A stretch of DNA of 64,000 bases from an uncultured Syntrophobacterales bacterium. GTDB taxonomy: Bacteria; Desulfobacterota; Syntrophia; Syntrophales; UBA5619. Every line of letters begins with the position of its first letter. Position 1 is the stretch's first letter. The notes beneath the pieces are model-generated. The model saw nothing but the letters and a program-made list of their open reading frames with translations, was not told the DNA's origin and made no database searches. Made by a program: the position numbers and the translations under genes. Of the stretch, positions 2,705 to 55,860 are shown piece after piece. Location: the NCBI GenBank assembly GCA_903928915.1, contig CAIYSL010000033.1:62001-126000 (forward strand). The letters are read 5' to 3'.

Positions 2705-3139
2705 CTAATCGCCCGTATCCGGCGTCAGGTCCGCGGAACGTATCCCGTATACGGCGCAGACCTCGTCGTTGTCGGAGGTGTCGCCCGAGATGCCCACCGC
2801 CCCGAGGATTGCGCCCGCGCCGGACTTGATCAACACCCCCCCGGGGACAGGGACCATGTTGCCGCCGGACATGTCCGAAAGGGCCGCGTAGAAGCCGACC
2901 TGTTTCACGGCCCGCCGTGCGATCTCCCGGCCGCCGAACCCCATCCCCAGGGTCCCCCAGGCCTTTCCGCGGGCGATTTCGAAGCGCAGCAGGCTGGACC
3001 CGTCGTCGCGCTTCACGCATTTGATCTGCCCCCCGGCGTCGAGCACAACGACGGTCAACGGGCAGAACTTGAGTTCCCGCCCCTTTTCCAGGGCCTTGTC
3101 GGCGATGCGATCCGCCACCGCCAGCGTCAATTGCTCCAT
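2705..3139 (-). CDS. GlcG/HbpS family protein
   Basis: A small protein of 144 aa from the preferred start. AAAGGAGA lies 7 nt before the second ATG and only 2 nt before the upstream ATG at 3145. It has the family's typical pattern: VVVLDAGGQIKCVKR near the N-terminus, a central helix rich in small residues, and a glycine-rich PVPGGVLI...GAVGISG stretch. Relatives include haem-binding HbpS and GlcG of the glycolate locus; their biochemical role is poorly defined. Its place between the GntR regulator and the M24 gene links it to hydroxyacid catabolism in this operon. No signal peptide is visible. Confidence 0.85.
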   Translation of the reverse strand: MEQLTLAVADRIADKALEKGRELKFCPLTVVVLDAGGQIKCVKRDDGSSLLRFEIARGKAWGTLGMGFGGREIARRAVKQVGFYAALSDMSGGNMVPVPGGVLIKSGAGAILGAVGISGDTSDNDEVCAVYGIRSADLTPDTGD

Positions 3140-10774: not shown

Positions 10775-11838
10775 CCTTCCCCCTCCCGTATCGAATGCGC
10801 GGCAGGAGCCGCCAGCGCCTCTGCATCGACCCCCAGCGTCGCACCTGCCGCGCAGACCGCCCGCCAGGTGTCCTCCGGGATCGGGATCCCGTCGCGTTCC
10901 CGCCGGGCGCGGCTGCGGGCCTCGGGCTCGCCGGGAATCAGCACCTCGGTAAAGCCCGCTGCCGGCGGGACGGCCTTGATCCGGCCGAGTGTCCTCTCCA
11001 GCGCCCGGCGATAATCCTCGGCCGGCCGAAAGGCGGCTGCATCGACGGCAAACAGGAAGATCCCGCTGCGGCTGGTCACGCCTGGGTAGGCGTCCGCGCC
11101 CGCCAGCGGTCCGCTCAAGAGCTCGGCGATGACCGCCAGCGCATACCCCTTGTGCCCGGCGAAGGGCAGCAGGAATCCGCCGTCGAAGAATGCCTGCGGA
11201 TCGACGGAGGGCCGGCCGCGGCTGTCGAGGATGGCATTGGGAGGGAGCTGCTCGTGCCGCGCCTTTGCCAGCTTGATCTTTCCCGCGGCGATGGCGGAGG
11301 TGGCAAAGTCGAGCGTGACCGGATCGCCGGCAGGGTTGGGCAGCGAAACGGAGAGGGGATTCGTTCCCAGGACCGGGGCCGCCCCCCCGTAGGGTGCGGT
11401 AGTGGGCTTGCTGACGGTTCCGATGGCCATGAACAGGGCCACGCCCCGCCGGGCCGCGCGCTCGGTGAATGCCGCCAGCCTGCCCGTATGGCCCGCCTGG
11501 ACGACCGAGACGACCGCTACCCGCTCCCGCTTTGCCTTCTCGGCGGCGAGGTCCGCCGCGAACAGCCCCGTTACCTGCCCGAAGGCCCAGTTTCCGCTCA
11601 CCAGCGCGCTGACGGCGGTCTCTTCGATCACGCGTGGACGGGCCGCGGGCACGATCTCCCCCTGCCGGACGCTCTGCACGTACTCCGGAATGCGGAGGAT
11701 GCCGTGGGAGTCGTGGCCGGCAAGGTGGTTGTCCACCAGGACGTCCGCCACCTGGCCGGCGAGGTCCTCCGGCGCTCCGGCAGCGCGAAAGATCGCCGCC
11801 GTCACCCGGTGCAGGATCTCCTTGCTCATCGTTGGCAT
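10771..11838 (-). CDS. Malate/L-lactate dehydrogenase family (LDH2) oxidoreductase
   Basis: An NAD(P)-dependent dehydrogenase of the non-Rossmann Ldh2/MDG2 family, 355 aa. Signatures: AGHDSHGILRIPEY near the N-terminus (catalytic His), GTNPLSVSLP for cofactor binding, and AGHKGYALAVIAELL. The family includes ureidoglycolate, sulfolactate, malate and 2,3-diketogulonate dehydrogenases, so the exact 2-hydroxyacid is unknown. GGAGG lies 8 nt before the first ATG. It follows the isopropylmalate-dehydrogenase-like gene and overlaps the CocE gene. Two different 2-hydroxyacid dehydrogenases behind one carboxylate transporter point to hydroxyacid catabolism. Confidence 0.9.
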   Translation of the reverse strand: MPTMSKEILHRVTAAIFRAAGAPEDLAGQVADVLVDNHLAGHDSHGILRIPEYVQSVRQGEIVPAARPRVIEETAVSALVSGNWAFGQVTGLFAADLAAEKAKRERVAVVSVVQAGHTGRLAAFTERAARRGVALFMAIGTVSKPTTAPYGGAAPVLGTNPLSVSLPNPAGDPVTLDFATSAIAAGKIKLAKARHEQLPPNAILDSRGRPSVDPQAFFDGGFLLPFAGHKGYALAVIAELLSGPLAGADAYPGVTSRSGIFLFAVDAAAFRPAEDYRRALERTLGRIKAVPPAAGFTEVLIPGEPEARSRARRERDGIPIPEDTWRAVCAAGATLGVDAEALAAPAAHSIREGEG

Positions 11839-50002: not shown

Positions 50003-50782
50003 CTAGTGCTGGCAGGAGGGGCAGAACCACGTCCCCCGTCCACCCATCGTCATCCGCTCGATCGTGCCGCCGCAGCGGCGGCACAGCTCCCCGTGCCGCG
50101 CGTAGACCGCCAGGTTGTGCTGATTCGTCCCGCTCTTGCCAAAGAGGTCCCGCCAATCGGAGATGCTCGTCCCGCGGCACGCCACTGCCCGGCTCAGGAC
50201 GACTGCGGCGGCCTTCTCCACGCGCCGCCATTCGGCGGCGGTCAGGCTGCCCGCGGGCCGGCGGGGATCGACGGCCGCCCCGTACAGTATCTCGCAGGCG
50301 TAGATATTGCCGATTCCGGCGATCAGCCGCTGGTCCATCAGCAATGATTTCACCGGCAGCCGGCGTTTTCCCGCGATTGCGCGGAGGCGGGACGCCGGAA
50401 ACTGCTCCAGCGGATTCTCCAGTGGTGCCGGGGCGGAATCCGCCGGTCCGACGGAGAAGGTGGCGAATCGCCGCGGATCGATCAGGACAAGCCTGCCGTT
50501 GCCGACGGCGATCACCATCCGGGTGTAGCGGGGAACGGGCCCCTTCTCCTCCAGCCAGAGGAGACGGCCGGTCATGCGCAGATGGAGTTCAGCCGTCAGT
50601 CCGTGCTCCATCTCAATCCGGAGGTACTTGCCCCGGCGCCGCACAGACACAACCCGTCCTCCCGCCAGCGGCGGCACCGTCCCCAGGCGGGGGTCGACGA
50701 TGTCGACGCGACGGACCTTTCCACCGGGGAGAATCTCCTGTAACTGACGACAGAGCGTCTCGACTTCGGGCAGTTCCGGCAT
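50003..50782 (-). CDS. mutM: Formamidopyrimidine-DNA glycosylase (Fpg/MutM)
   Basis: A base-excision repair enzyme of 259 aa that removes 8-oxoguanine and FaPy lesions and nicks the abasic site. The catalytic N-terminus MPELPEVETL gives Pro2 and Glu3 after Met removal. DQRLIAGIGNIYACEILY forms the helix-two-turn-helix, and the C-terminal zinc finger has four Cys (CRRC...CPSC) with the lesion-recognition loop between. It ends CPSCQH, slightly short after the finger. It is divergent from a small gene across a 324-bp region with three palindromic operators. Confidence 0.95.
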   Translation of the reverse strand: MPELPEVETLCRQLQEILPGGKVRRVDIVDPRLGTVPPLAGGRVVSVRRRGKYLRIEMEHGLTAELHLRMTGRLLWLEEKGPVPRYTRMVIAVGNGRLVLIDPRRFATFSVGPADSAPAPLENPLEQFPASRLRAIAGKRRLPVKSLLMDQRLIAGIGNIYACEILYGAAVDPRRPAGSLTAAEWRRVEKAAAVVLSRAVACRGTSISDWRDLFGKSGTNQHNLAVYARHGELCRRCGGTIERMTMGGRGTWFCPSCQH

Positions 50783-50810
50783 CGGTAATCCTTTGCGGCG
50801 TGGGTGTTTT

Positions 50811-50839
50811 GTTTAAGCCGACCGGGAATCCCCTGTCAA
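50811..50839 (-). promoter_or_regulatory. Candidate mutM promoter
   Basis: Minus strand TTGACA (50834-50839), 17 bp, TTAAAC (50811-50816), 28 nt before the mutM ATG. The first GGAAC-N5-GTTCC palindrome begins 12 bp upstream of the -35 element. Confidence 0.5.
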
Positions 50840-50851
50840 GCGAAAACAACA

Positions 50852-50866
50852 GGAACATTATGTTCC
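50852..50866. promoter_or_regulatory. Operator-like palindrome 1, GGAAC-N5-GTTCC
   Basis: GGAAC-ATTAT-GTTCC, embedded in a 17-nt perfect odd palindrome (50851-50867), just upstream of the mutM -35 box. The first of three copies in this intergenic region. Confidence 0.7.
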
Positions 50867-50881
50867 TAAATGAAAATAATC

Positions 50882-50896
50882 GGAACTTGCAGTTCC
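50882..50896. promoter_or_regulatory. Operator-like palindrome 2, GGAAC-N5-GTTCC
   Basis: GGAAC-TTGCA-GTTCC, exactly 30 bp after copy 1 (about three helical turns, same DNA face). It overlaps the -35 hexamer of the plus-strand promoter at 50887-50914. Confidence 0.7.
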
Positions 50897-50914
50897 ATAT
50901 ACCATATATACAAT
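50887..50914 (+). promoter_or_regulatory. Candidate plus-strand promoter overlapped by operator 2
   Basis: TTGCAG (50887-50892), 16-bp spacer, TACAAT (50909-50914) in an AT-rich stretch that contrasts with the GC-rich surroundings. It would transcribe the small gene at 51107, leaving a leader of about 185 nt that contains operator copy 3 and a small hairpin (CCGGC-TTATT-GCCGG, 51007-51021). Confidence 0.45.
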
Positions 50915-50982
50915 AAATCAGCTAGTTACAAATATACTTGCCATATGATGCATGCATTCGACAGACTGCTAACCTGCGTATC

Positions 50983-50997
50983 GGAATAAATTGTTCC
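50983..50997. promoter_or_regulatory. Operator-like palindrome 3, GGAAT-N5-GTTCC
   Basis: GGAAT-AAATT-GTTCC, one base off the other two copies and with the same 5-bp spacing. It lies between the candidate promoter and the small gene. Confidence 0.6.
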
Positions 50998-51106
50998 CAT
51001 TGTTCACCGGCTTATTGCCGGGCGCTTCTCATATTAATCAATAATAACAGATAGTAACAAGTGTGGCATGGGGTTCTCATTGTACAGGCGCAAAGGGAAA
51101 CGCGTT

Positions 51107-51358
51107 ATGGCTCTCAAGAAGAAGTCTGTCACCCTGACGGGAATTGTCATCCCGGCGGACTGGAACGACGATCAAGAAGTGGTGGGCGCGGCCTTGGCCA
51201 CGGCCGACGAAAAGGAATACCGTATCGACGGCAACCGCAAAGGGAAGGAGCTGCTGGATCATCTCCAACTGCAAGTAGAGGTAACCGGCTCGCTCGGCGG
51301 GGACGAAAGAGGCAGGGAGGTCATTACCGTCAGGCGGTACATCGTCAAGAGTACATGA
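51107..51358 (+). CDS. Small hypothetical protein (OB-fold-like)
   Basis: An 83-aa protein I do not recognise. ATG at 51107 follows AAAGGGA, better than the frame's earlier start. After a basic MALKKKSV the sequence alternates strands and turns: VTLTGIVIPADW, EKEYRIDGN, HLQLQVEVTGSL and EVITVRRYIVKST. That pattern fits a small all-beta (OB-like) nucleic-acid- or ligand-binding fold, as inference only. It is divergent from mutM and followed by the kamA promoter and leader. Confidence 0.65.
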   Translation: MALKKKSVTLTGIVIPADWNDDQEVVGAALATADEKEYRIDGNRKGKELLDHLQLQVEVTGSLGGDERGREVITVRRYIVKST

Positions 51359-51612: not shown

Positions 51613-52920
51613 ATGGAAAGTGAGCCACTTTTCGTGGAGGAGGCAGAACCTCCAGGTAGATTGACCGACGTTGTCGGTCTGAATCGGTACAGCGAACAGG
51701 TTTGTACGTCTCTGGACACCCTTTACGCGCCGGCCGCCGTTGCCCGCAGGCCGGCTTCCCGCCCGGCTGGTGTGGATGTCAGTCGGTCCCGGAGTTTCCG
51801 CAAGCGTTACTTCCCGGACGTTACCCTCAAGGATTGGCAGGATTGGCACTGGCAGCTCCGCAATCGCATCCGCGATGTGGCTACCCTGGGCCGGATGATC
51901 CGCCTTTCCGAGGATGAGCGTCACGCCATGAGCGGAGCAGCGGGCGCGATCCCGCTTGCGATCACCCCCTACTACGCCAGCCTCATCGATCCCTGGAACC
52001 CGAAGCAGGCCCTGCGGCGAACGGTCGTGCCGACGGTGCATGAACACTTCCGCGGCAGCGGCGAAGCGGATGATCCGCTCCATGAAGATGAGGACAGCCC
52101 CGTCCCCGGCATCGTCCACCGGTATCCGGACCGCGTTCTCTTCCTGGTGACCGGGATCTGCTCGACCTACTGCCGGTACTGCACCCGTTCGCGGATGGTG
52201 GGACACCACGGCAACCACTGCCTGGACACGGGGCAGTGGGAAAAGGGAATCGAGTACATCGCGGCGCATCCGGAGGTGCGGGACGTACTGCTGTCCGGCG
52301 GCGATCCGCTGACCATGGCCGACGAACAGATCGAGTGGCTGCTCGCCCGGCTGCGGATGATCCCGCATGTGGAGCTCATCAGGATCGGGACAAAGGCGCC
52401 GGCCGTGCTGCCGCAGCGGATCACCCCGGCGCTGGTGCGGATGCTCAGGCGCTACCACCCCCTGTGGATCAGCATCCATGCGGCCCACCCCGACGAGCTG
52501 ACGCCCGAGATGTCGCAGGCATGCAGGCGCCTCGCCGACGCGGGGATCCCCCTGGGAAGCCAGACGGTGCTGCTATCCGGGATCAACGACGATGTGGAGA
52601 CGATGCGTCGCCTCGTCCACGGCCTGCTGAAGATCCGGGTCAAGCCCTACTATCTGTACCAATGCGACCCGATCCCCGGCTCCTCCCACTTCCGGACCCC
52701 GGTGAGCACGGGGCTCGAAGTCATCCGGGGGCTCAGGGGATTTACCACCGGCTACGCCGTGCCGACCTATGTTGTCGACGCCCCCGGCGGCGGCGGAAAG
52801 ATCCCGCTCCTGCCTGAATACGTGGTAGGACAGGAGGACGGAGATCTCCTGCTGCGCAACTACGAGGGAGACATCTTTCGGTATCCGGACTGCCCCGCGA
52901 CGGAAAGTGTCATCCACTGA
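51613..52920 (+). CDS. kamA: Lysine 2,3-aminomutase (KamA family radical SAM enzyme)
   Basis: A 435-aa radical SAM/PLP enzyme converting L-lysine to beta-lysine. The Fe-S motif is C-x3-C-x2-C at residues 183, 187 and 190 (ICSTYCRYC). PLP Lys396 lies in APGGGGKIP. The two Asp that hold lysine in characterised enzymes are both present (Asp352 in YQCDPIPG, Asp389 in VVDAPG), favouring free lysine over the glutamate enzyme and over EpmB, which modifies EF-P. The spacing GGAGG-CAGTGG-ATG supports the start. No AblB-type acetyltransferase is adjacent; the next genes are two ATP-grasp ligases, though a hairpin lies between. Confidence 0.9.
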   Translation: MESEPLFVEEAEPPGRLTDVVGLNRYSEQVCTSLDTLYAPAAVARRPASRPAGVDVSRSRSFRKRYFPDVTLKDWQDWHWQLRNRIRDVATLGRMIRLSEDERHAMSGAAGAIPLAITPYYASLIDPWNPKQALRRTVVPTVHEHFRGSGEADDPLHEDEDSPVPGIVHRYPDRVLFLVTGICSTYCRYCTRSRMVGHHGNHCLDTGQWEKGIEYIAAHPEVRDVLLSGGDPLTMADEQIEWLLARLRMIPHVELIRIGTKAPAVLPQRITPALVRMLRRYHPLWISIHAAHPDELTPEMSQACRRLADAGIPLGSQTVLLSGINDDVETMRRLVHGLLKIRVKPYYLYQCDPIPGSSHFRTPVSTGLEVIRGLRGFTTGYAVPTYVVDAPGGGGKIPLLPEYVVGQEDGDLLLRNYEGDIFRYPDCPATESVIH

Positions 52921-52954: not shown

Positions 52955-52998
52955 CTCCTTGCCCGATGCATCCGTTGATTGGTGCACAGAGTAGAAGC

Positions 52999-53982
52999 AT
53001 GAACATCGGCATCACCTACGACCTTCGGGACGATTATCTCGCCGAGGGATACGGAGAAGAAGAGACAGCGGAATTCGATCACCCGAAGACGATCGCGGCG
53101 ATCGAGGAGACGCTGATCGCTCTCGGGTATACCACCGACCGGATCGGCCATATCCGCGCCCTGGCAAAGCGGCTCGTCGCCGGTGAGCGGTGGGACCTGG
53201 TCTTCAACATCGCCGAAGGGCTCCGCGGATTCGGCCGCGAGGCACAGGTGCCGGCGCTCCTGGACGCCTACGATATCCCCTATACCTTCTCCGATCCCCT
53301 GGTCCTGGCCCTCACCCTCCACAAGGGAATGACGAAACGGGTGATCCGCGACCTCGGGATCCCGACCCCCGCCTTCGCCCTCGTCGAGTCCCCCGCCGAG
53401 ATCGCGGGGATCCGCCTTCCCTTCCCGCTGTTCGCCAAACCCGTCGCCGAGGGAACCGGGAAAGGGGTGACCGCGGCTTCGAAGATAGCCGACCCGGCGG
53501 AACTGGAGCAGGTATGCCTGACCCTGCTGAGCGTATTCCGGCAGCCCGTCCTCGTGGAGACCTTTCTCCCAGGGAGGGAATTCACCGTCGGCATCATCGG
53601 GACCGGCGCCGAGGCCATCGCCCCGGGGGTGATGGAAGTCCACTTTCTGGAGACGGCGGAGCGGGAGGTATACTCCTACCTTAACAAAGAGGAGTGCGAC
53701 GAACGGATCTCCTACCGCCTGGCCCACGATCCGCTGGCGCGGCTGGCGGAAAGAACGGCCCTCGCAGCCTGGCGGGGGCTCGGCTGCCGCGACGGGGGAC
53801 GAATCGACCTGCGCACCGACGCCGCGGGGATCCCCCAGTTCATGGAGGTCAACCCGCTGGCGGGTCTTCGCCCCGGGCACTCCGACCTGCCGATCCTCTG
53901 CGAGCTGGCCGGGATGCCGTACCGCGAACTGATCGCCGGGATCATGCACTCCGCGCTCGAGCGCATCCGGGACGAGCGATGA
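52999..53982 (+). CDS. D-alanine-D-alanine-ligase-like ATP-grasp enzyme 1
   Basis: A 327-aa ATP-grasp ligase, started at MNIGITYDLRDDYLAEG. It has FPLFAKPVAEGTGKGV (ATP-binding Lys and glycine loop), VETFLPGREFTVGIIG, and the metal-binding EVNPLAGL near the C-terminus. The N-terminal pocket sequence (VFNIAEGLRGFGREAQVPALLDAYDIPYTFSDP in pieces) resembles Ddl, but the opening DLRDDYL is unlike Ddl's GGxSxE, so the first substrate is probably not D-Ala. It overlaps the second ligase by 4 nt. These enzymes join a carboxylate to an amine through an acyl phosphate. Confidence 0.85.
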   Translation: MNIGITYDLRDDYLAEGYGEEETAEFDHPKTIAAIEETLIALGYTTDRIGHIRALAKRLVAGERWDLVFNIAEGLRGFGREAQVPALLDAYDIPYTFSDPLVLALTLHKGMTKRVIRDLGIPTPAFALVESPAEIAGIRLPFPLFAKPVAEGTGKGVTAASKIADPAELEQVCLTLLSVFRQPVLVETFLPGREFTVGIIGTGAEAIAPGVMEVHFLETAEREVYSYLNKEECDERISYRLAHDPLARLAERTALAAWRGLGCRDGGRIDLRTDAAGIPQFMEVNPLAGLRPGHSDLPILCELAGMPYRELIAGIMHSALERIRDER

Positions 53983-54959
53983 AGATCGCCGTCATCCACG
54001 GGGAAGTGGCCGCGGGCGCGGCACGGGACGAGCTGGATGTTCTCACCCAGGTTGAGTGTGTCTCGAACGGCCTCGCCGGCCTCGGCCACGATCCTCTCAG
54101 CGTGCCCGTCTCGCTCGACCTGGCGCGGCTCGTCCGAACGATCGCCGAGATCCGCCCGGCGATCGCCTTCAACCTCGTCGAAACGCTCACGGGCCGGGGC
54201 AGTCTGATCCACCTCGTCCCGGCGGTTCTCGACACCCTGCGGCTGCCCTACACCGGTGCCGGGAGCGAGGCCATGCTCCTGACCTCGAACAAGGTCCTCG
54301 CCAAGAAATGGCTGGCTGCCTCCGGACTCCCCACCCCCCCCTGGGTTACCACCGCGTCACGGGACGAAGACTTTCCGATCGCGGGGCCCTGGGTCGTAAA
54401 ATCGGTATGGGAACACGCCTCCGTCGGTCTCGACGAGGACTCGGTCATACCGGAGGCAACCGGCGAAAGGCTGCGCGCGGAGATGACGGCGCGGCGGGAA
54501 GCACTGGGCGGCGCATGTCTGGCCGAGGCCTTCGTCGACGGCCGGGAGTTCAACCTCTCCCTGCTGGCGGGCGCGGAGGGTCCCGAGGTGCTTCCCCCGG
54601 CGGAGATCCGGTTCGATGCGTACCCGCCGGGCAAGATCCGCGTCGTCGGATATCGTTCCAAGTGGGAGGAGGGCTCCTTCGAGTTCAACAACACCCCCCG
54701 CTCCTTCGACTTCCCCGGTGAGGACGCGGCGCTGATCGCGCAGCTGCAAGAGCTGGCGCTCAACTGCTGGCGGTGCTTCAACCTCCGCGGGTACGCCCGG
54801 GTCGATTTCCGGATCGATCGGGCAGGACTCCCCTGGATCCTCGAGGTGAACGCGAACCCCTGCCTCTCGCCGGATGCGGGCTTCTCCGCGGCGACCGAGC
54901 GGGCCGGACTGCCGTTTGCGGAGGTGCTCCGGCGGATCATCCGCGACGTCCCCCCCTGA
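53979..54959 (+). CDS. D-alanine-D-alanine-ligase-like ATP-grasp enzyme 2
   Basis: A 326-aa ATP-grasp ligase, translationally coupled (ATGA) to the one before it. AFNLVETLTGRGSLIHLVPAVL and PYTGAGSEAM form the N-terminal lobe; GPWVVKSVWEHASVGL contains the ATP-binding Lys; AEAFVDGREFNLSLLAG follows; the metal ligands lie in ARVDFRID and LEVNANPCLS. Two different ligases in tandem suggest two successive amide bonds, or a heteromeric enzyme, rather than cell-wall D-Ala-D-Ala synthesis. No murein genes are near. Confidence 0.85.
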   Translation: MKIAVIHGEVAAGAARDELDVLTQVECVSNGLAGLGHDPLSVPVSLDLARLVRTIAEIRPAIAFNLVETLTGRGSLIHLVPAVLDTLRLPYTGAGSEAMLLTSNKVLAKKWLAASGLPTPPWVTTASRDEDFPIAGPWVVKSVWEHASVGLDEDSVIPEATGERLRAEMTARREALGGACLAEAFVDGREFNLSLLAGAEGPEVLPPAEIRFDAYPPGKIRVVGYRSKWEEGSFEFNNTPRSFDFPGEDAALIAQLQELALNCWRCFNLRGYARVDFRIDRAGLPWILEVNANPCLSPDAGFSAATERAGLPFAEVLRRIIRDVPP

Positions 54960-55019: not shown

Positions 55020-55367
55020 GTGTTAAAGCCATTGATATTACTCACCCTGTCAAACGTGTTCATGACCTATGCCTGGTACGGACATCTCAAGAGCATGAAT
55101 GGACAGCCCCTCGTTCTGATCATACTGCTGAGCTGGGGGATCGCTTTTTTCGAGTATCTGCTCCAGGTGCCGGCCAACAGGATCGGCATCCACTACTTCA
55201 ACCTCGCCCAGTTGAAGGTCATCCAGGAAATCATCGCAATGGTCGTCTTCGCCGGCTTTGCCTTCTTCTACATGCGGATCCCGCTGAAGTTGGATTTCCT
55301 CTGGGCAGGGCTCTGCCTGGTCGGCGCGGCCTACTTCATGTTTCGGGGAGAGCTGCCCCATGCCTGA
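55020..55367 (+). CDS. DUF486 (DMT-like) small membrane protein
   Basis: A 115-aa integral membrane protein with four hydrophobic helices, GTG start. MLKPLILLTLSNVFMTYAWYGHLK and FFEYLLQVPANRIG are characteristic of the DUF486 family, distant relatives of small drug/metabolite transporters. The function is unknown. It overlaps the GNAT gene by 8 nt and follows the ATP-grasp pair by 60 bp, so it might export the ligase product; that is inference. Confidence 0.85.
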   Translation: MLKPLILLTLSNVFMTYAWYGHLKSMNGQPLVLIILLSWGIAFFEYLLQVPANRIGIHYFNLAQLKVIQEIIAMVVFAGFAFFYMRIPLKLDFLWAGLCLVGAAYFMFRGELPHA

Positions 55368-55860
55368 ACCGAGCGGAATCGTTTACCGCCGGGACCTGCT
55401 CCCCGGTGACCGGGAAGCGGTGGGCAGGGTCGTGCGCGCGACGGGGTTCTTCTCCGCGGAGGAGGCCGCAATAGCCCAGGAACTCGTCGACGAGAGGATG
55501 GCACGAGGCGAGGCGAGCGGTTACTCCTTCCTGTTTGCCGAAGCCGAGGGGAACCTCCTGGGGTACACCTGCTTCGGCCCGATCGCCGGTTCGGTCCACA
55601 GCTTCGACCTCTACTGGATCGCTGTGCTTCCGGGTGCGCAGGGCAGGGGGCTCGGGAAGAACCTGATGGCCGAGTCGGAACGGATCATGGCGGTCTGCGG
55701 GGCCAGACGCGTCTACGCGGACACCTCTGCCCGCCCGCAGTACGAACCGACCCGTGCCTTCTACCGTTCCTGCGGGTATACGCAGGAGGCGCTGCTCGTC
55801 GACTTCTACGCCCCGGGCGACGGGAAGGCGATCTTCGTAAAGATTCTCCCCGCGGCTTGA
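55360..55860 (+). CDS. GNAT-family N-acetyltransferase
   Basis: A 166-aa acetyl-CoA-dependent transferase. The acetyl-CoA-binding stretch is VLPGAQGRGLGKNLMAESERIM (R/QxxGxG/A variant), with YTCFGPIAGS before it and FYRSCGYTQEALLVDFY at the C-terminus. The acceptor is unknown. It is shorter than AblB, the beta-lysine acetyltransferase, and I cannot claim that role, although it lies in the run of genes after kamA. Confidence 0.88.
   Translation: MPEPSGIVYRRDLLPGDREAVGRVVRATGFFSAEEAAIAQELVDERMARGEASGYSFLFAEAEGNLLGYTCFGPIAGSVHSFDLYWIAVLPGAQGRGLGKNLMAESERIMAVCGARRVYADTSARPQYEPTRAFYRSCGYTQEALLVDFYAPGDGKAIFVKILPAA

Follow-up and report, generated by a model that had tools for sequence, protein, structure and literature searches.

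Genes and features of the locus

The window, i.e. the whole stretch of 64,000 nucleotides that was analyzed, is part of a draft genome of 4.34 Mb (G000; all other G and L labels denote compared genomes and loci). It contains three palindromes, which are followed on the plus strand by a presumed sigma-54 promoter and a presumed operon. The features are listed below in window coordinates; distances given for relatives are those observed before the orthologous operons.

50852..50866, no strand: candidate enhancer site 1 (UAS1), GGAACATTATGTTCC; exact match, in relatives 29-32 bp before site 2
50882..50896, no strand: candidate enhancer site 2 (UAS2), GGAACTTGCAGTTCC; exact match, in relatives 89-104 bp before site 3
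50916..50928, plus strand: IHF-like sequence AATCAGCTAGTTA, one mismatch to WATCAANNNNTTR; offset as in relatives
50983..50997, no strand: candidate enhancer site 3 (UAS3), GGAATAAATTGTTCC; exact match, geometry kept in relatives
51064..51079, plus strand: presumed sigma-54 promoter TGGCATGGGGTTCTCA with a good -24 half and a degenerate -12 half; assigned via position and homology
51107..51358, plus strand: small OB-fold protein of 83 aa, presumed first operon gene; AlphaFold mean pLDDT 84.6, best Foldseek matches are OB-fold domains
51613..52920, plus strand: KamA-family radical SAM protein (lysine 2,3-aminomutase-like); TIGR00238 with 362.4 bits, above cut-off; TIGR03820 with 490.5 bits, below the cut-off of 525.4
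52966..53982, plus strand: ATP-grasp ligase 1 (D-Ala-D-Ala ligase-like), from family searches
53979..54959, plus strand: ATP-grasp ligase 2, from a family search and the loci of relatives
55360..55860, plus strand: GNAT-like acetyltransferase, presumed last operon gene; ORF by eye, same position in relatives by tblastn, Pfam GNAT for the counterpart in G056

Occurrence of the palindromes

Exact matches to GGAAY-N5-RTTCC occur three times in the window and nowhere else in it, compared to a mean of 0.29 in dinucleotide-shuffled sequences; the maximum among the shuffles was two, and none out of 100 reached three. Their coordinates and the 30 bp between the starts of sites 1 and 2 are confirmed as given in the original prediction; the starts of sites 2 and 3 are 101 bp apart. 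If one mismatch is allowed the window contains nine matches against 9.13 expected, which is chance level, and the signal is therefore the exact cluster. This palindrome trio is real and far above chance.

In the draft genome the exact pattern was found at 16 places, compared to five for a reversed-pattern control. The original prediction had asked for a genome-wide search for the motif upstream of genes; this search yielded the window trio as the sole promoter cluster, and 11 out of the 13 places outside the window lie within mechanically called ORFs, the other two (L002, L089) outside ORFs. Extending the regulon within this genome was too noisy both with one mismatch (at least 488 places vs at least 293 for the control) and with 30-bp pairs allowing up to three mismatches. 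A pooled profile of 58 sites, which were preselected by the core motif, widens the motif to about AYCGGAACTNNNAGTTCCGRT.

Three-site geometry in related bacteria

An orthologue of the small gene is present in 18 out of the 41 genomes searched. Upstream of these orthologues the arms GGAAY and RTTCC are kept while the central five bases vary, and spacings of 30 and 100-103 bp are kept as well. The distance from site 2 to site 3 is either 89-93 or 99-104 bp, two classes that differ by approximately one helical turn. As a control the arms were permuted: with the real arms a triple, defined as at most one mismatch per site together with both spacings, occurs in 12 out of 80 kamA-operon loci, and with each of 29 permuted arms in 0 out of 80. 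By sequence comparison the three-site arrangement is common to many related anaerobic bacteria. The claim that the repeats are real regulator sites with a meaningful spacing is very probably correct.

The promoter set outside the family of the window comprises 14 members, namely G037, G056 (twice), L160, L161, L164, L166, L182, L184, L188, L200, L201 (twice) and G061. The G061 locus (L077) has spacings of 29/89/69, which are outside the limits of the script, and was added by eye. The geometry scan gave no site pair for L018, L086, L157 and L178. Several named loci among L135-L148 are the same records as family genomes G001-G020; L188 corresponds to G050/L215 and L227 to part of L201, and L215 and L227 were excluded as extra promoters.

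Two loci carry more than one such promoter. In L201 two three-site promoters (2963-3110 and 10925-11072), both with spacings of 31/102, precede kamA in one case and OB-fold genes in the other. In G056 an unrelated small gene without an assigned family has a second three-site promoter in front of it (L088:5422-6038; 30/101/70).

The presumed sigma-54 promoter

Outside the family the sigma-54 box starts 68-72 bp past the start of site 3 in 13 out of 14 promoters and at 80 bp in one; these promoters mostly possess good boxes, e.g. TGGCATATCTGTTGCT or TGGCACGGCAATTGCT. Within the family the box is found at 68-70 bp in 13 out of the 14 loci given. For the 14th, L018, which lacks a third site even at one mismatch, this distance was not scored; in L017 the box was placed at 70, a value of 34 being an artefact of the score cut of the scan. 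The -24 boxes of the family read TGGCAC, TGGCAT, TGGTAT or CGGCAC. In loci L006-L017 and L022 the -24 half is strongly kept, and all 13 scored have TTCC or TTTC, never TTGC, at -12.

The window promoter is the weakest of the set. Its -12 half reads TCTC, its box was not top-scoring in the scan, and its distance from the site-3 start is 81 bp instead of 68-72 bp as in most relatives, a shift of 11 bp, or about one turn, beyond 70. An altered RpoN as cause of the odd -12 half in the family was considered and rejected, because the draft genome has rpoN and its RpoN box is intact. A search of this genome for TGGCAC-N5-TTNCW (17 matches vs 14 for the control) was of no help with the -12 half of the family.

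Judged by the general hallmarks of sigma-54 control, most promoters outside the family have good -24 GG and -12 GC elements; in the window this holds for the -24 half only. Palindromic activator sites approximately 70-250 bp upstream of the promoter are represented by the three sites with their fixed spacing, and the genome contains rpoN as well as a candidate cognate activator bearing the GAFTGA loop. As the spacing is nearly rigid with two classes, the natural variants (sites 2 and 3 near 92 or 101 bp apart, the box at about +70 or +80) make the helical phasing of the enhancer directly testable.

IHF-like sequences

A further hint towards the architecture arises from sequences resembling the IHF consensus, which we take to be WATCAANNNNTTR. 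The IHF-like sequence AATCAGCTAGTTA in the window is by itself within chance (13 out of 100 shuffles contain one as good), and the promoter-proximal IHF-like site of the window is a poor match. In 20 promoters outside the family, however, the consensus placed at a fixed position 19 bp before the -24 start has a mean of 1.45 mismatches, compared to 5.59 (sd 0.85) when all offsets are taken together; 13 out of 20 have at most one mismatch. A second, weaker position is found 35-36 bp past the start of site 2, with at most one mismatch in six out of 20 at each offset. Seven of the 20 promoters stem from a scan that already demanded the distance from site 3 to the box and are therefore uninformative on that distance. 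This pattern suggests that IHF probably has a role at two phased positions.

The candidate regulator

The candidate regulator is encoded on another contig of the same genome and was assigned by its linkage to the sites and its co-occurrence with them in relatives.

G000, contig C73, 19403-20794, outside the window: orthologue of an NtrC-type sigma-54 activator (bEBP)

In G037, G056, G061, L160, L161, L166, L182, L184, L188 and L200 the bEBP gene immediately precedes the sites. In these other families the sites lie directly 3' of the bEBP gene and 5' of the OB-fold gene and/or the series kamA, ATP-grasp, ATP-grasp, GNAT. The gene order in G056 is bEBP, three sites, kamA, ATP-grasp, ATP-grasp, GNAT, and in G061 paired sites are flanked by the activator gene and by a small gene for a secreted OB-like protein. 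Counted over 66 loci outside the family, a triple occurs in six of the 10 that carry the bEBP in cis and in two of the 56 that do not (Fisher p 6e-5); in one of these two, L164, the contig begins just before site 1. Deviating spacings of the sites are seen in L157 and L178 despite the bEBP in cis, and in L199, likewise with the bEBP in cis, no triple occurs.

Co-occurrence points in the same direction. Over 41 genomes the small gene and the bEBP agree in 39: both are present in 16 and neither in 23, the small gene alone occurs in two (G003 and G018, where the bEBP was not detected), and the bEBP alone in none. Exact site pairs were found in 12 out of 19 bEBP-positive vs one out of 43 bEBP-negative genomes. 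As counts of genomes are not phylogenetically independent, the fairest figure is the one by family, with exact pairs in four out of five bEBP-positive and 0 out of 16 bEBP-negative families (p 8e-4).

The orthologues of the G061 bEBP are a distinct group with 58-65% identity over the full length; the second copy in G061 has 56%, and the next bEBPs mostly have at most 46% over long alignments. The protein contains a Sigma54_activat domain with the GAFTGA loop, a Fis-type HTH (HTH_8) and a receiver-like domain (Response_reg, 36.8 bits). In the receiver-like domain Asp51 is invariant in 16 out of 16 sequences and the acidic pair is not conserved (alignment A3, which leaves out L079 and L188); at the usual Lys position of receivers, nearly all sequences have Tyr (TYP). 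With the acidic pair not conserved and this Tyr, it is possible that the bEBP is not regulated by phosphorylation in the ordinary way.

Around the unlinked bEBP of the draft genome (L075) no exact site and no intergenic site with one mismatch was found. A gene for a CdaA-type diadenylate cyclase (Pfam DAC; L075:9835-11295, minus strand) is convergent with the bEBP there, and diadenylate-cyclase-like ORFs were also seen by eye beside the bEBP in L079, L081, L083 and L157.

Proposed mechanism and alternative explanations

Comparison of the loci reveals the sites with their constant geometry, a sigma-54 promoter in the relatives and the linkage and co-occurrence with the bEBP; from it we infer binding and activation, the part of IHF, a single operon transcript and its product. 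We hold it highly probable that the palindromes are upstream activating sites of one NtrC-type bEBP which drives a sigma-54-dependent lysine-modifying operon. Dimers of the bEBP on sites 1, 2 and 3 would assemble an active AAA+ oligomer. The intervening DNA would be bent, probably by IHF at the two phased positions; the activator would thereby meet the sigma-54 RNA polymerase near 51064, at the -24/-12 promoter, and open this promoter. The transcript would carry the OB-fold gene, kamA, the two ATP-grasp genes and the GNAT gene.

The original prediction took the palindromes for sites of a repressor or activator and considered a new damage or oxidative-stress regulon possible; that they control sigma-70 promoters of mutM and the small gene within such a regulon we regard as very improbable. 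The palindromes do not resemble an SOS or oxidative-stress box. The repeats are indeed intergenic beside mutM, and mutM also precedes the small gene in the family members L084 and L085. Outside the family, however, the same sites with the same spacing occur and no mutM was seen beside them (L076, L080, L077, L160-L201), and mutM was therefore rejected as a target. The proposed overlap of copy 2 with a plus-strand -35 and the position of copy 1 beside the mutM -35 could not be reproduced: a sigma-70-type scan of 50700-51150 gave a single weak match, on the minus strand at 51069-51041, and no match that overlaps copy 1 or copy 2. With a geometry locked to the sigma-54 box, such neighbours and no distribution of the exact sites over several promoters in the draft genome, the SOS or oxidative reading is not supported and was set aside as improbable. 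The idea that the palindromes are minus-strand RNA hairpins acting as terminators or attenuators has a practically negligible probability; on that strand copies 1 and 2 do have terminator-like scores, but the palindromes lie upstream of mutM, and what is conserved elsewhere are the distances between the sites and to the sigma-54 box.

A further alternative is that the same sigma-54 enhancer is bound here by another of the approximately 25 bEBPs of this genome, with the C73 orthologue having a different role. The C73 gene is unlinked to the sites in this genome, which contains 24 other bEBP-like matches. Yet in other genomes linkage to the sites and co-occurrence with them were found for its orthologue group only, and full-length orthologues within the family are 77-83% identical. 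We therefore consider this alternative unlikely and retain the C73 bEBP as the candidate activator.

A more far-reaching proposal is that an activator with a degenerate receiver, three sites, two phased IHF bends and one sigma-54 promoter form a rigid nucleoprotein structure controlling a beta-lysine peptide or polyamine-conjugate pathway. Its input might be c-di-AMP or the osmotic state, because the bEBP adjoins a diadenylate cyclase gene in the genome of the window and in several relatives. Taken as a whole this proposal is speculative and rather doubtful.

Relation to known systems

The type of mechanism, with a bEBP, sigma-54 and probable IHF, is classical. In Desulfovibrio vulgaris the sigma-54 regulons are small, with one bEBP per motif and the bEBP gene often beside its target, and the sites lie upstream of the sigma-54 promoter as proposed here (PMC4641369). 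As a difference, the main text of that paper mentions neither a GGAAC string nor any target of the aminomutase, lysine or ATP-grasp kind (PMC4641369). The PrsR regulon of PEP-CTERM systems is described with an upstream motif that is sometimes repeated and a sigma-54 box about 63 nt further on (PMC1569441). The PrsR model TIGR02915 is the best-scoring NCBIfam model for the G061 bEBP (357.9 bits, below the cut-off of 502.6), whereas motif 1 of PrsR ends in TTTACA and its target genes are others (PMC1569441). For Bacilli a lysine 2,3-aminomutase (COG1509) was predicted to be sigma-54 dependent and listed with amino-acid metabolism genes (PMC12316311). An aminomutase gene under predicted sigma-54 control is shared with the window, but the host group is different and the consulted part of that report describes no comparable enhancer (PMC12316311).

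No published account of the motif, the regulator or the regulon was found in the literature searched, including searches with motif strings and for Syntrophus sigma54 enhancer binding proteins. Within this literature and the readable text of PMC4641369, the combination of motif, regulator and operon and the rigid three-site architecture appear to be new. A motif, a regulator and a target are thereby proposed for a widespread kamA/ATP-grasp/GNAT operon.

Operon genes, product and regulon

The best PDB matches of the small protein are domains of RPA, LysRS, PriB and SSB with E of about 1e-3; no Pfam or NCBIfam family matched. The first ATP-grasp protein is up to 85% identical to its nearest named relatives, which are from Syntrophales or Syntrophaceae and other deltaproteobacterial MAGs. 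The operon of kamA, two ATP-grasp genes and GNAT, often with the OB-fold gene, is widespread in deltaproteobacterial MAGs and present in other phyla. As most kamA/ATP-grasp loci outside the family are without sites and without the bEBP, the operon does not need such control.

Lysine 2,3-aminomutase and an acetyltransferase are the products of the AblA/AblB genes for the osmolyte N-epsilon-acetyl-beta-lysine, and the operon of the window likewise pairs an aminomutase-like with an acetyltransferase-like gene, but adds two ATP-grasp ligases and the OB-fold protein (PMC3543383). With this precedent, our guess is that the product could be a beta-lysine-derived, acetylated or ligated small molecule, maybe a compatible solute or a conjugate. 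The regulon also suggests a metabolite derived from lysine, which it may be possible to identify.

Across the phylum, 395 genomes were scanned for site 3 combined with a sigma-54 box; 23 of them matched, and again OB-fold, kamA and ATP-grasp genes were found; several of the matches lie within coding ORFs and look like chance. Matches with extra upstream sites or conserved targets precede OB-fold genes in L225, L235, L236, L245, L247 and L249. Other targets are kamA (L227, and as second gene in L225), ATP-grasp (second gene in L245) and S-adenosylmethionine decarboxylase (L226). From these targets and the second promoter in G056 the regulon looks small and centred on the kamA/ATP-grasp operon.

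In G037 the region 3' of the three-site promoter (L076:4224-8613) contains genes for GNAT, for a decarboxylase of the Orn/Arg type and for an ATP-grasp ligase, as well as an ORF that by eye resembles AdoMet decarboxylase. The gene content of this cluster suggests a possible link to polyamines. In some kamA operons an extra gene with a histone-deacetylase-type domain is located between ATP-grasp and GNAT (L184:10017-11864).
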